From Bacteroidota bacterium (GTDB lineage Bacteria > Bacteroidota > Bacteroidia > Flavobacteriales_D > Sanyastnellaceae), in the NCBI GenBank assembly GCA_027619225.1, contig JAQCFW010000013.1, positions 1 through 62,718 on the forward strand: a DNA stretch of 62,718 nucleotides, in the 5' to 3' direction. Numbering within the stretch: the first letter of the stretch is position 1; every line of letters starts with the position of its first letter. The notes beneath the pieces were generated by a model. The model saw nothing but the letters and a program-made list of their open reading frames with translations. It had not been told where the DNA came from and did no database searches. The position numbers and the translations under genes are program-made. Below are positions 7,900 through 13,508 of the stretch, in pieces.

Positions 7900-9453
7900 T
7901 TATTCTACTTCTATTAGTTGGGTTCCTTCAATTCGAACTTGTACTCGAACATTTTCGTAACCCGTAAATGTGACTGCACCCTCTGTACTGGCAGTTAGAC
8001 GTACATGTAAACTTCCACCAGGACTTACCGTCTCTTCATTAAGTGGAATCACCAGTAACCCATGTTGACTAACCTCTGGGTAAGAACTTCCAGCTTCGAT
8101 ATTCCCAATCATGCTCACGATAGTACCATCTTCGTCATTAACTACATAGTCAATATCGGCGACAACCTCCACTGGGAAAGTACTGGTTAGATCCACAAGC
8201 AAACGACCCTCGAACTTAGGGAAGTTCATCGGGTCTATAATATACACCTCCTCTAACACCACTCCGTCTAGACCAAGTTTAAAAGGAATTGCTAATTCTA
8301 ATTCTAGCTTAGGGGGATATGCATTATTTATATAATCATGCCCCAAAGAAACATCTCCAAAAGGATTAAGCTGTACGCTTCCAAACATCGCTACATCGTG
8401 AGGCAAAGTCTCAATAAGATCGAAAATATTCGAACCCGTTTCTCCTAAATCAAGTACTAAACTACTGTGATTAATCAAAGTTTCATCGTTCCAATATGCT
8501 CTTGCAACATCATGAACACCATATAGTGTAGGATGCTCTAAAAATTGATCGTCCATAGAAATTTCATCAAATTTTAATCTCAATTCTGCGCCTATGTAGT
8601 TCTCAATTGTCAATTTCGCACTGGCACCATCTAAATCGAGAACTGGGTTGGGAATAGAAATTGTATCTATCAGAGTCACCTCTGAATCAAAAGGAAGATC
8701 CTCTTGTCCAAAATAACCTTTCGCCGTTTCAATTGTAAGGTCGACTAGTTCAATCTCCACCAACATACTGTCTGTAGTTGTCAAATAGAAAATTTCCGTA
8801 TTTAAAATAGATCCCGTGGTCGTAAAGGTTGAGGTCATCACATTTTCACTAAGCCCATTTTCTCCAGATAAATTAAAAATAGCTCCAGTTAAATCTAGCG
8901 TCTCTGTTGCAAAACCGTTCACACCACCTTGAGCAGCTGGAACAGCCAATTCAATACCTGCAATCACTCCACCAACTGTCACGCTATTGAGATAATATGC
9001 CATATCTAAAATCCCTTCAACAGAACTCTCAACAGACAACCTCATATACCCAGAATTAAGTGAAAATTCTTTTAAGTAAGCATCTGAATTTGCACCAAAA
9101 CTTTCAAAGACAATCTCATCTGTTTCATTAACAAACAAATCCCCCAATGGCACAGGAACATTTGATAATAAAATACCTTCCATAGACATATTCTCTTCAA
9201 TTAACGTATCAGGTAACGTGGGGAGATAATCTGCCGAAAACTCACCGAAAGGGATCTTGTACAACATCCTTGCGGGCTCTCCAGCTTCTCCCAACGTAAG
9301 CAATGAGTCAGGAAAGGAAGAAGACCAGGTGATATTGTCATCTACCAATGGAAGAAAAACTTCGATATTCCAACTCATGGGCTCCCTGTCTTCACAGCTT
9401 GAAAACACTGCTGCTACAGACAATAGAACTAAAGAGAATTTCATTTTATTCAT
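7900..9453 (-). CDS. Large hypothetical lipoprotein
   Basis: This 517-residue protein has a lipoprotein signal with lipobox VFSSC (Cys20), followed by an acidic, Ser/Thr-rich, beta-strand-rich body with many I/V/L-D repeats. No enzyme motif was recognised. The acidic residues after Cys20 (EDRE) could fit surface-exposure signals described for Bacteroidota lipoproteins. It overlaps the 3' end of the dapF fusion by 8 nt and is followed 2 nt later by the DUF5723 barrel gene. A surface adhesin or barrel partner is possible but not demonstrated. Confidence 0.75.
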   Translation of the reverse strand: MNKMKFSLVLLSVAAVFSSCEDREPMSWNIEVFLPLVDDNITWSSSFPDSLLTLGEAGEPARMLYKIPFGEFSADYLPTLPDTLIEENMSMEGILLSNVPVPLGDLFVNETDEIVFESFGANSDAYLKEFSLNSGYMRLSVESSVEGILDMAYYLNSVTVGGVIAGIELAVPAAQGGVNGFATETLDLTGAIFNLSGENGLSENVMTSTFTTTGSILNTEIFYLTTTDSMLVEIELVDLTIETAKGYFGQEDLPFDSEVTLIDTISIPNPVLDLDGASAKLTIENYIGAELRLKFDEISMDDQFLEHPTLYGVHDVARAYWNDETLINHSSLVLDLGETGSNIFDLIETLPHDVAMFGSVQLNPFGDVSLGHDYINNAYPPKLELELAIPFKLGLDGVVLEEVYIIDPMNFPKFEGRLLVDLTSTFPVEVVADIDYVVNDEDGTIVSMIGNIEAGSSYPEVSQHGLLVIPLNEETVSPGGSLHVRLTASTEGAVTFTGYENVRVQVRIEGTQLIEVE

Positions 9454-11416
9454 CTCGAACTAAGTTTAAATCTTTCCTAAATGGTATAACAGTCAAAAAT
9501 ACGGATACAGCGGCGCATCTCAAAGCAAGAGTTGACAATTGAAATTCGAACACACTCAAAATAAGATATGAAATGCATATCAGAGCAGCAATTTTGCCAG
9601 CTTGCCTCTTAAACCCTGAATGAATAGGAATAAAGTAAACCAATGCGGCGAGGGTCCACAAAAGATTAATATTTGCCCAAGTATCTGTGTGATCTGTAAA
9701 CGCCCACATTAATAGCAGAAGAATTCCAAGTAAAGATGAGACTAGAGCAACCACCCCTCTTAATTTGGACGTAAACCCGCATTTCTCTCTGTTCCTGAAG
9801 GTCACAATAATCATCAAGCTCGTGATGAACACCATCAAAACAGCAGGAACATCCAAAGCGGAGTCAGGCAGCCAAGCTCCATCATCAAAAACAACAAAAT
9901 TTTCATGATTATCCTTTAACAACCCCACTCCATCAACTGTCATAGTACTTAAAGCTTTAGAAAGTTCATCCGGAATAAATGCATCACCGCATGGAGGCAT
10001 GATCTTGTCAGATTTGGGACCTAAAATGAAATCCATTCCAAAAGCTGTCCAAGGTGATCCAGCTATATATGGCTGCAATCCATCTCTGAAAGTTTTCCCG
10101 CTTTTTTTGCAATGTGTCTCAAAAGACGCTCCCAACGATTCTTGAAAAAGCGTGATGATCCGAGTCGAACAGTTGTCTCTGAAGAATTCATAACTATACA
10201 CTGCGTTCTCTTCTTGAAGGTTCCAGGAAAGATATTCTGCCACCTGCCGAATTTGGGCAGGTGTAAGATTAAGTATTTGCTCTTTTACGCCTCTTTCCTG
10301 ATCTATATTCTGCCTTTGAAATTGATAGAACGGCACTGCGGAGAGATGATAATCTAATCTACCTAACATAAAGTTGTAGTAGAAATCCTCACTGAAGGAG
10401 AATGTTCCATAGTTGAATACCCAATCCACGATAGGCACTTCAGCGGGGTCGTAAATTCTCACTGCTGTATGGCCAAAAATAGAGTAAGCATCTTCGCCTG
10501 GTGAGGAGGTTAAAATACTGACTTTTGTTTCGCCGCTCAAGCTGTCGTACCAATTTGCATGTACCTCTAAAGGCATACAAAACCACAATAAAAAGATGGG
10601 CAACAAACGAGTGATTCCTCTATATAATTCTCTTGCTGCTCCTGAAAGCCAAACATTCTCATACCCACCTTCACCATCTTCTTTAAACTCGACAAACAGC
10701 TTGCCACCAGACATATGAATTGTCCTCTTAGGTTTCCCTCCATGAATAGAATAGTCAACTATAGAAGCCGCTACTGCGCCTGTTCCGCAGGCTTTCGTCT
10801 CCGCCTCTACGCCTCTCTCGTATGTTCTAAGTGCTAAACCTTCTGACACTGTGCAAAGAGCGCTTACGTTAACTCCTCCTATCGAAGAATAATCATCGCT
10901 ATACCGGATTTTACGCCCAAATGTATCAATCTCAAGCTGACTCAGTTCGTCAAAATCTTTCACTAAATGAATGTGATGTGGTGATCCCGTGTCAAGGAAG
11001 AAATCCCCGGAACTTAATGATTTTGGAGCGACAACAGGTCTGAATTCTACACTTGGCACATCATACTCATCGTTGCGCCTTACTTTATGAAGTCCATCAC
11101 AAGCTTCAAAAACTGCGTTATCTCCAATTAAGCCTTCACGGTGAGCGTATTCAAAAGACGCCCTCGTACCATTTCCACAAAAAGACCTCGTACCGTCTGA
11201 GTTTCTGTAATCACATTTGAGGTCAGCCTCCGCAATAGAGGATTCAACCAAACAGATAAGGCCATCACAGTTTTGCTTCAAACAAATCTCCGCAACAACT
11301 TTATCTTCAAGAGTCGTTAAATCAAGGCTCCCAGCGTACTTAAATCCATTAACAATTGCGAAGGTATTTCCCGTTCCTTCCCACTTTTGGAATTCGATTT
11401 TCAAGTCATCACCCAT
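9446..11416 (-). CDS. dapF: Diaminopimelate epimerase fused to DUF4105 membrane protein
   Basis: The frame can extend to 11524. I choose ATG 11416 because MGDDLKIEFQKWEGTGNTF matches normal DapF N-termini and a TACCTTCG box ends 4 nt upstream. The result is 656 residues. Residues 1-265 are diaminopimelate epimerase with both catalytic Cys (FCGNGTR and KACGTGAVA). It converts LL- to meso-diaminopimelate for peptidoglycan and lysine. The chain then runs without a stop into a signal-anchor-like segment (LLPIFLLWFCMPLEVHA), a DUF4105 domain (about 285-460, ILTSSPGEDAYSIFGHTAVR, DNCSTRI) and about five membrane helices. DapF would be cytoplasmic and DUF4105 periplasmic. Confidence 0.88.
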   Translation of the reverse strand: MGDDLKIEFQKWEGTGNTFAIVNGFKYAGSLDLTTLEDKVVAEICLKQNCDGLICLVESSIAEADLKCDYRNSDGTRSFCGNGTRASFEYAHREGLIGDNAVFEACDGLHKVRRNDEYDVPSVEFRPVVAPKSLSSGDFFLDTGSPHHIHLVKDFDELSQLEIDTFGRKIRYSDDYSSIGGVNVSALCTVSEGLALRTYERGVEAETKACGTGAVAASIVDYSIHGGKPKRTIHMSGGKLFVEFKEDGEGGYENVWLSGAARELYRGITRLLPIFLLWFCMPLEVHANWYDSLSGETKVSILTSSPGEDAYSIFGHTAVRIYDPAEVPIVDWVFNYGTFSFSEDFYYNFMLGRLDYHLSAVPFYQFQRQNIDQERGVKEQILNLTPAQIRQVAEYLSWNLQEENAVYSYEFFRDNCSTRIITLFQESLGASFETHCKKSGKTFRDGLQPYIAGSPWTAFGMDFILGPKSDKIMPPCGDAFIPDELSKALSTMTVDGVGLLKDNHENFVVFDDGAWLPDSALDVPAVLMVFITSLMIIVTFRNREKCGFTSKLRGVVALVSSLLGILLLLMWAFTDHTDTWANINLLWTLAALVYFIPIHSGFKRQAGKIAALICISYLILSVFEFQLSTLALRCAAVSVFLTVIPFRKDLNLVRDE

Positions 11417-11420
11417 GCCT

Positions 11421-11428
11421 CGAAGGTA
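11421..11428 (-). promoter_or_regulatory. -7 box of the dapF fusion
   Basis: TACCTTCG on the minus strand (one mismatch to TAnnTTTG) ends 4 nt before ATG 11416, implying a leaderless transcript. It lies back to back with the E1 box at 11432-11439. Confidence 0.5.
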
Positions 11429-11431
11429 ACG

Positions 11432-11439
11432 TACCTTTG
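11432..11439 (+). promoter_or_regulatory. -7 box of the E1 gene
   Basis: TACCTTTG matches the consensus. It ends 2 nt before ATG 11442 and 5 nt before ATG 11445, so 11445 is the better leaderless start. Confidence 0.5.
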
Positions 11440-11441
11440 CC

Positions 11442-13508
11442 ATGATGGCGCAACACTCTTCCACTTCAATATCCACAGATAAACTTCTCAATGCATACCG
11501 CACAATGCGTATCGCTAGAAGCATGTCTGACCTGTATGAAGAGCATGCAAAACTGACCTCGAAATACGTTCATGCTTGTTCTAATGGTCACGAAGCTATT
11601 CAAGTGGCAGCAGGGTCTTTACTCAAGAAACAAGACTGGCTTAGTTGCTATTATCGGGATGACTGCATGTTGCTTTCTATGGGCTTGACGCCAGAGGAGC
11701 TTATGCTCCAGCTTTTCGCCAAACGCGACGATCCGTTTTCTGGAGGAAGGACGTATTACAGCCACCCCTCACTTAATCGAGATGACCTCGCAAAAATTCC
11801 ACACCAAAGTTCAGCTACTGGAATGCAAGCCATTCCAGCTGCCGGAGTAGCAATGGGGATTCAGCACAGAGAAAAGTTGGGCCTTGACACACACGAAAAA
11901 GGCGAAGCACCTGTTGTGATGTGCTCTATAGGAGATGCAGCTGTTACTGAAGGCGAGGTAAGTGAGGCGCTTTATATGTCTGCACTCAAGAAACTACCTA
12001 TTGTTTGGCTTGTACAGGACAACGAATGGGACATCTCAGCTCACGCCAGAGAAATCCGGTTCGGAGATGCTGCCACAATGGCTGCAGGATACCCTCCCAT
12101 AGAGGTACGCCAAGTGGACGGAACCGATTTGCCCGCTTGCATGGCTTTGATGGAGGAAGTTTTTGATACGGTGCGAAATGAACGTAGGCCGTTCCTGATA
12201 CATGCCACCGTTCCACTTTTAGGTCACCACACATCGGGAGTGAGACGCGAATTCTATCGTGACGACTTAGAGGAAGCTCAACAGCGAGATCCAATTCCAC
12301 GTATTGAGAAGCATCTTCAGGATTCAAATATCTTAGACTCTTCCCAGATTACTCTTCTCAAAGCTGAAATCGATGCAGAGGTAAACGAAGCATTTGACAG
12401 AGCTCGCAATGCTGAAGAGCCTGTCTTCGAAGATCTGTTAGCCCATCGGTTTGCTCCCACAGAAATTACTGAAGAGAAAGGCACTCGTGAACCTGAGGGA
12501 GGTGAAATAACACTCATGGTGGACTGTGCGCTTCATGCCATGCAGGAAATTATGTCTAAGCATCCCGAGTCTCTCCTGTATGGTCAAGATGTGGGGAAAC
12601 GTTTGGGAGGCGTTTTTCGTGAAGCAGCAAAACTTGGAGATCAATTCGGTGAAGACAGGGTGTTTAACACTCCGATACAAGAGGCATTCATCGTCGGATC
12701 CACTTTAGGCATGTCTTGTACAGGACTCAGACCCATCGTAGAGGTGCAGTTCGCAGACTACCTTTGGCCAGGTCTTAACCAACTCTTCTCAGAACTCTCA
12801 AAATCTTACTTCCTTTCAAACGGCCAATGGCCGGTACACTCTCTGATTCGCGTTCCTATTGGAGCTTATGGTTCAGGAGGTCCCTACCACAGTTCATCGA
12901 TGGAGTCTGTACTTTCAAATATCCGAGGAATAAAAGTAGTTTACCCCTCAAACGGAGCAGATCTTAAAGGACTTTTAAAAGCCGCTTATTACGATCCCAA
13001 TCCAGTGATCATGCTGGAGCATAAAGGTTTATACTGGTCTAAAGTTCCGGGCACAGAATCTGCCAAATGCATAGAACCATCCGAAGATTATGTAGTGCCT
13101 TTAGGAAAAGCTCGAATTGTAACTCGTGCTACCCAGAAAAATTCTTGCACTTTAATCACATATGGACGAGGCGTTTATTGGGCTCTGGAGTCTGCGAAAC
13201 AGTTTCCTGGAGCAGTTGAAATAATCGACCTTAGAACGATCGTCCCTGTGGATTTCGATGCTATTTCTGAAAGTGTAAAGCGAACAAATCGCTGCCTCGT
13301 TTTAACGGAAGAACCAGAAAACAATACGTTCGCCCAAGCTCTTACAGGCAGAATCGCAAAGGAGTGTTTCGAGTATTTAGATGCTGCACCTGACCTTATT
13401 GGCAGTGAGGATCTGCCGGCCATTCCCTTGAATGAAAACATGGAGAAAGCATACCTACCTAATGCGGACAAGGTCGCTAAGCGCATAGGAAAACTACTTG
13501 AATACTAA
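11442..13508 (+). CDS. Thiamine-dependent 2-oxoacid dehydrogenase E1, alpha-beta fusion
   Basis: This 688-residue protein (687 from ATG 11445) carries an E1 alpha domain (about 10-340) and an E1 beta transketolase-like domain (about 350-688) in one chain, as is common in Bacteroidota. The TPP/metal motif is GDAAVTEGE with the closing QDN about 27 residues later (about 165-195). The beta part shows GQDVGKRLGGVF and EAFIVGSTLGMS. It decarboxylates a 2-oxoacid, most likely branched-chain or pyruvate-type, and passes the acyl group to E2 lipoamide. E2 and E3 are not in the window. The exact substrate cannot be read from the sequence. Confidence 0.9.
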   Translation: MMAQHSSTSISTDKLLNAYRTMRIARSMSDLYEEHAKLTSKYVHACSNGHEAIQVAAGSLLKKQDWLSCYYRDDCMLLSMGLTPEELMLQLFAKRDDPFSGGRTYYSHPSLNRDDLAKIPHQSSATGMQAIPAAGVAMGIQHREKLGLDTHEKGEAPVVMCSIGDAAVTEGEVSEALYMSALKKLPIVWLVQDNEWDISAHAREIRFGDAATMAAGYPPIEVRQVDGTDLPACMALMEEVFDTVRNERRPFLIHATVPLLGHHTSGVRREFYRDDLEEAQQRDPIPRIEKHLQDSNILDSSQITLLKAEIDAEVNEAFDRARNAEEPVFEDLLAHRFAPTEITEEKGTREPEGGEITLMVDCALHAMQEIMSKHPESLLYGQDVGKRLGGVFREAAKLGDQFGEDRVFNTPIQEAFIVGSTLGMSCTGLRPIVEVQFADYLWPGLNQLFSELSKSYFLSNGQWPVHSLIRVPIGAYGSGGPYHSSSMESVLSNIRGIKVVYPSNGADLKGLLKAAYYDPNPVIMLEHKGLYWSKVPGTESAKCIEPSEDYVVPLGKARIVTRATQKNSCTLITYGRGVYWALESAKQFPGAVEIIDLRTIVPVDFDAISESVKRTNRCLVLTEEPENNTFAQALTGRIAKECFEYLDAAPDLIGSEDLPAIPLNENMEKAYLPNADKVAKRIGKLLEY

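Follow-up and report, generated by a model that had tools for sequence, protein, structure and literature searches.

Fusion in one reading frame of diaminopimelate epimerase and the lipoprotein N-acyltransferase Lnb in four genera of Bacteroidota, with a signal-peptide-like join

Background

The cytochrome b/c1 polyprotein FbcH of Bradyrhizobium is a bacterial chain from which cleavage at an internal signal peptide yields two functional proteins, both of them subunits of one membrane complex. To our knowledge, bacterial polyproteins processed at an internal signal peptide are rare. The gene described here, designated dapF-lnb, lies in a stretch of 62,718 nucleotides from a Bacteroidota bacterium (assembly GCA_027619225.1, contig JAQCFW010000013.1, positions 1 to 62,718), the whole of which is called the window, and joins a complete diaminopimelate epimerase (DapF) to a complete membrane protein of the family DUF4105. 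It may be compared with FbcH in that a chain with an internal signal peptide would give two working proteins, whereas its parts are unrelated enzymes of two compartments and the cleavage is a prediction only.

The two halves have well-described counterparts. An ordinary DapF, as represented by the model TIGR00652, stops past its last strand, while the fused chain, whose first half exceeds the cut-off of that model and has both cysteines and the DapF fold, continues into a membrane segment. A bifunctional DapF/glutamate racemase (NF038284), which the DapF part matches below the cut-off (89.6 of 350 bits), is, as its name says, a single bifunctional enzyme, whereas the window chain is a fusion to a membrane enzyme. 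The Lnb of Bacteroides and the second half of the window chain share two Pfam domains, the His and Cys of a permuted NlpC/P60 core and a signal-peptide-like segment ahead of them; the difference is that the window Lnb is preceded in frame by a whole DapF. DUF4105 is, according to the available portion of PMC12994826, Lnb, the lipoprotein N-acyltransferase of Bacteroidota, and the original description of Lnb is 10.1073/pnas.2410909121, as cited in the available portion of PMC13103446. No report of a DapF-Lnb fusion was found among titles and abstract openings, a search in which few subscription journals were covered, and the gene appears to place two known enzymes in an arrangement for which no published description was found.

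Results

The fused open reading frame

The dapF-lnb gene is a single frame on the minus strand, a strand that the first-pass annotation had left unstated, and it starts with an ATG at 11416, ends with a TAA at 9448-9446 and has no internal stops. Its parts, in the order of the chain, are:

9446..11416, minus strand, the dapF-lnb fused open reading frame, 656 amino acids plus stop; the same one-frame join is present in 41 of the 41 loci read, window included
10613..11416, minus strand, DapF part, residues 1-268; assigned by Pfam, TIGR00652, the conserved cysteines and solved DapF entries at Z scores of 24-30
10556..10612, minus strand, the join, residues 269-287, an internal signal-peptide-like segment; assigned by sequence pattern and a low predicted local distance difference test score (pLDDT), with putative cleavage
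10124..10555, minus strand, Lnb_N periplasmic domain, residues 288-431; assigned by Pfam and a YiiX/TseH-like fold
9488..9850, minus strand, C-terminal helix bundle of Lnb (5TMH_Lnb), residues 523-643; assigned by Pfam (524-624) and by five predicted helices in the models

The first-pass annotation of the window had described a chain that passes from the DapF C-terminus through a signal-anchor-like segment into a DUF4105 domain without a stop, a cytoplasmic peptidoglycan-precursor enzyme being joined to a periplasmic domain and a helix bundle, and the 656-residue frame bears out both parts of this description. The same join was read in 41 loci, one from each of 41 genomes, window included, which belong to four genera designated g1 (14 loci), g5 (18), g3 (7) and g10 (2). 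In a 42nd genome, G101, the match runs across the join within an open frame of 382 residues close to a contig end, and all 42 readable joins in the four genera were fused.

The joined frame is under selection. In ten pairs of sequences the ratio of nonsynonymous to synonymous substitution rates (dN/dS) was 0.06-0.17 for DapF (nine values, one pair being saturated), 0.07-0.30 for Lnb and 0.10-0.29 for the join segment (36-53 codons, the first Lnb residues included). An assembly error at the join, which the annotation had named as a danger, did not survive these observations, nor did chance or a sequencing artefact, both ruled out by the recurrence of the join in 41 genomes and by the low dN/dS. 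The 41 genomes include four public records from two projects (UBA2619, SZUA-1004, SZUA-1298 and UBA974), nothing was found to support an artefact, and we consider one vanishingly improbable. The fusion of a complete DapF and a complete DUF4105 membrane protein is real.

Distribution and origin of the fusion

The search covered 114 genomes of the family (f1), 101 of which gave a match. The four fused genera hold 49 genomes, 44 of them with a match: the 41 that were read, G101, G110, in which the contigs break at the join, and G095, which has only part of Lnb. No match to the DapF or the Lnb half, also with a g3 query, was obtained in G034, G115, G116 and G117 (g3) or in G092 (g5). The g3 genomes without a match are thus four of 11, and two of these four are more than 90% complete; missing contigs are the likely reason, and gene loss may be another. 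A stop inside the matched range in G003 and G008 is the frame's own end, 358 residues past the start of the Lnb match and away from the join.

The loci with separate genes are a non-random draw of 35 that were fetched from 14 other genera of the family and had both genes on one contig; in G029 and G060 the halves are on different contigs, and for three genera of the family no judgement was possible. In all 35, dapF and lnb are separate and on the same strand. The annotation had proposed a search for other fusions and for neighbouring dapF and DUF4105 genes, and the family contains both; the separate genes in relatives that it would have counted against the fusion occur outside the four fused genera only, every readable join within them being fused. 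In 18 of the 35 loci the dapF stop and a start codon in the lnb frame share bases (11 ATG and 7 GTG, when the lnb frame is required to reach the dapF stop; 12 and 7 without that requirement). Eight loci from five genera (g2, g6, g7, g13 and g16) have about 730-850 bases between the two genes, and L081 has about 2.6 kb. In one example, L019:687-1535, the gene-size stretch between dapF and lnb resembles the BadF/BadG ATPase family at a score under the cut-off (26.2 of 31.5 bits).

The trees and one alignment (A1) were made without 8 partial fused rows of the 41, leaving 33 full-length ones. In a joint tree of DapF and Lnb without the join (68 rows, L081 being counted as adjacent despite its gap), the 33 fused rows fell on one side of a branch with a Shimodaira-Hasegawa-like approximate likelihood ratio test (SH-aLRT) value of 99, and the trees of the single halves agreed (SH-aLRT 94 for DapF and 99 for Lnb). 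When the rows with a gene in between, which do not form one side of a branch, were taken as the outgroup, g11, with separate genes, adjoined the fused rows. The trees carry no inferred root, and the direction of change is taken from the genes being separate outside the four genera. Read in this way, the trees need one fusion event, in the ancestor of g1, g3, g5 and g10.

Elsewhere in the order (355 genomes, at least 80% complete) and in the class (296 genomes, at least 90% complete, drawn evenly from a larger group), no full-length fused match was present among the matches listed by E-value, an order that should put full-length matches first. The class search also returned an unusual Lnb locus, G611:C2:308090-309094, where the Lnb match, which has a stop in the matched range, lies next to an open frame of 753 residues.

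The DapF half

The Pfam family DAP_epimerase was matched over its cut-off at residues 139-249, and TIGR00652 at residues 7-269 with 137.8 bits (cut-off 114.65), covering positions 1-268 of the 270 in the model. Both active-site cysteine motifs of DapF, CGNG and CGTG, are present. Cys80 (codon 11179-11177) is kept in 36 of 36 filled fused rows and Cys210 (codon 10789-10787) in 40 of 40; these two residues we take to be the catalytic pair, and the solved structure entries include DapF mutants C73S and C217S. When the DapF half was compared with solved structures, the DapF chain 8qzy_B gave a Z score of 30.1 (253 aligned residues, root mean square deviation (rmsd) 2.1). The top structural match was the O-ureidoserine racemase 7vdy_B (Z 31.1), about 1 above the best DapF, and the best solved chains by sequence are DapF, a search with the fused alignment having returned 17 chains, all of them DapF or O-ureidoserine racemase.

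The Lnb half

The second half contains Lnb_N (PF13387; residues 288-431, 87.9 bits against a cut-off of 22.2) followed by 5TMH_Lnb (PF25221; residues 524-624, 28.6 bits, narrowly over the cut-off of 25.2), both in the expected order. PF13387 is presumably the former DUF4105. The candidate catalytic residues are His316 (10471-10469), kept in 41 of 41 filled fused rows, and Cys416 (10171-10169), kept in 40 of 40; their equivalents, H29 and C129, do not vary across the 68 rows of an alignment that combines fused and unfused Lnb.

A model of the Lnb half built from the 68-sequence alignment had a mean pLDDT of 92.1, and its best solved matches were YiiX (Z 11.8, 164 aligned residues, rmsd 3.6) and TseH (Z 10.2, 153 aligned, rmsd 3.8), in agreement with the permuted NlpC/P60 fold; both are clades named in the available portion of PMC12994826. 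Foldseek gave no match to this half under an E-value of 0.001, TseH being a weak match at 0.059, and neither those results nor the 17 chains matched by the fused alignment included a solved Lnb structure.

The narrow NCBI equivalog model for Lnb, NF051878, was matched over model positions 7-359 of 394 with 171.2 bits, below its cut-off of 550, and for that reason the window Lnb is not filed under it. Three other fused members scored 143-161 bits and three unfused Lnb of the family, taken without the signal peptide, 198-279 bits, so that all six relatives also fall below the cut-off; the shortfall therefore reflects mainly distance from Bacteroides, the fused clade being somewhat further away.

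The annotation had treated DUF4105 as a domain of unknown function for which the fusion suggested a role in the cell wall. That reading is corrected here: the Pfam and NCBI models and the available portion of PMC12994826 point to Lnb, an uncharacterised cell-wall protein was rejected on the same grounds, and since DUF4105 is Lnb, the fusion gives no ground for a cell-wall role.

Gene content of the host

The window genome is 97.3% complete. It contains a single DapF, matched in two stretches of one frame, and a single Lnb_N; signal peptidase I and Lgt are also present. The best match to Lnt had 37.5 bits (cut-off 132.9), and Lnt was rejected as a replacement for Lnb in this host. With one DapF, one Lnb and no Lnt over the cut-off, the fused gene therefore appears to be the sole source of the DapF and Lnb functions. 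Both halves look alive, judging from the invariant active-site residues and the low dN/dS in DapF, the join and Lnb.

The join

The DapF C-terminus is followed by RGITRLLPIFLLWFCMPLEVHA↓NW, the arrow marking where signal peptidase I is predicted to cut, between 10556 and 10555. The segment consists of one or more positive charges, Arg included, a short hydrophobic core and a c-region ending in VHA, an AxA-type site just ahead of Lnb. In the full-length model the pLDDT was below 50 at residues 273-276 and 278-287, which is consistent with a flexible join and is no proof of one.

A signal peptidase I-type pattern, defined as [AVISTLG]xA after the hydrophobic core, was present in 37 of 41 fused joins, 32 of 35 signal peptides of unfused Lnb and, within the C-terminal bundle, 37 of 62 helix cores. 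Shuffled joins had a mean of 28.4 sites (sd 2.6), and 0 of 2000 shuffles reached 37 of 41. By Fisher's test the fused joins differed from the bundle helix cores (p 0.0007) and not from the unfused signal peptides (p 1.0), p-values that are guides only, the sequences being related and the counts not independent. The comparison suggests that a signal peptide with a cleavable look (VHA↓NW) is retained at the join as frequently as in unfused Lnb.

Discussion

The observations to be explained are one frame with conserved active-site residues, a single gene copy, conservation across genomes, one origin in the trees and signal-peptide features that are as frequent as in unfused Lnb. The explanation that we favour, and judge slightly more probable than not, is that dapF-lnb encodes a polyprotein. 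The neighbouring, overlapping dapF and lnb genes would have become one frame once, in the ancestor of the four genera, and have been kept in that state since. One chain would be translated, of which residues 1-268 would fold in the cytoplasm as an ordinary DapF converting LL- to meso-diaminopimelate, while the former signal peptide of Lnb, now internal, would direct the chain to the inner membrane so that DapF stays inside. Export of the Lnb_N domain would follow and signal peptidase I would cut after Ala287, the products being a normal mature Lnb, which would N-acylate lipoproteins, and a DapF with a short hydrophobic tail. We infer from the genes that one chain is translated, what topology it has, that it is cleaved, that both enzymes are active and what becomes of the DapF tail. 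More tentatively, and with the balance of our judgement against it, the only DapF and the only Lnb of this lineage could be made 1:1 from a polyprotein split by signal peptidase I, all DapF being born at the membrane with a signal-peptide tail anchor and the supply of meso-diaminopimelate being tied to lipoprotein maturation.

Several points weigh against a polyprotein. It is read from genes and models only; the cleavage pattern is loose, four of the 41 fused joins being without it and 37 of the 62 helix cores having it; the join segment could serve as an uncleaved anchor; the last strand of DapF has an in-frame ATG in ten of the 14 g1 loci; and if the stop codon had been lost and the loss only tolerated, the outcome would be hard to tell apart. 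The chief rival is a permanent tether, in which the join is a signal anchor, the chain stays whole and Lnb ties the DapF of the host to the inner membrane on its cytoplasmic side. One frame with purifying selection across the join agrees with this, and the sequence, with its loose AxA-type pattern, does not prove cleavage. However, the uncharged, non-polar run at the fused joins is short (9-28 residues, median 16), the signal peptidase-type site occurs at the rate of unfused Lnb and above that of the bundle helices, and we know of no benefit of such a tether, DapF and Lnb differing in both substrate and compartment. We consider the tether rather unlikely. Initiation within the frame would have Lnb made also, or mainly, from a start codon near the join, giving two ordinary products of one open frame. 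The codon just mentioned, at the SEM of the last DapF strand, is TTG in three further g1 loci and TTA in the window, and the lnb-frame start over the dapF stop in 18 of the 35 separate loci also speaks for such initiation. Within residues 255-287 of the window the in-frame start codons are three TTG, at 10606, 10603 and 10588, and one ATG, at 10576, where the hydrophobic stretch is almost over. Yet the DapF C-terminus has a hydrophobic residue at the SEM position regardless, the ATGs are scattered with no position common within g5 (18 loci), g10 (2) or g3 (7), starts at the window TTG codons would yield a signal peptide without positive charge, and none of the 42 readable joins has a stop between the parts. 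Internal initiation is quite improbable as a general account; it is not favoured at the TTG codons of the window and is possible in part of g1.

A different matter is whether the fusion was ever of use. A stop codon may have been lost from an overlapping gene pair and the loss tolerated because signal peptidase or other proteolysis separated the parts, with no selected benefit, an account that is compatible with a polyprotein and to which we give even weight for and against. The overlap in 18 of 35 separate loci, the single origin and the cleavable-looking join favour it, and neutral loss of the stop codon in such a pair would suffice to account for the fusion. Against it, the fusion has been kept in all 42 readable joins over a deep divergence, the identity of the fused proteins to the window falling to 32%, and no reversal was seen. 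The gene shows an overlapping gene pair turning into one lasting gene. It also offers a natural and conserved example in which an exported membrane enzyme would have a cytoplasmic enzyme as its leading half, and the fusion predicts processing of a bacterial polyprotein at an internal signal peptide.

Gene neighbourhood

Two further genes adjoin dapF-lnb:

7900..9453, minus strand, lipoprotein-like gene with the N-terminus ...AAVFSSCEDREP, directly downstream; its start codon lies over the last bases of the fused gene
11442-13508, strand opposite to dapF-lnb (divergent, upstream), 2-oxoacid dehydrogenase E1 gene, with E1_dh, Transket_pyr and Transketolase_C in one frame

A strict lipobox pattern was found downstream of lnb in 42 of 67 loci and a loose pattern (hydrophobic run, Cys, Trp) in 66 of 67, the miss being L095; L103 was too short. 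The loose pattern occurred at 82 of 1102 random places and in 0 of 67 loci on the other strand. The downstream lipoprotein-like gene often starts C..RE..W (67 loci of the family), and its product may be a coupled substrate of Lnb. A gene for KDO-8-phosphate synthase (KDO, 3-deoxy-D-manno-octulosonate) lies further along the dapF-lnb strand. Given the mixed envelope genes nearby, shared expression is a plausible reason for the old adjacency of dapF and lnb. The start codons of dapF-lnb and the E1 gene are 25 bases apart (11416-11442), leaving scant room for two promoters unless one of the genes starts further in.

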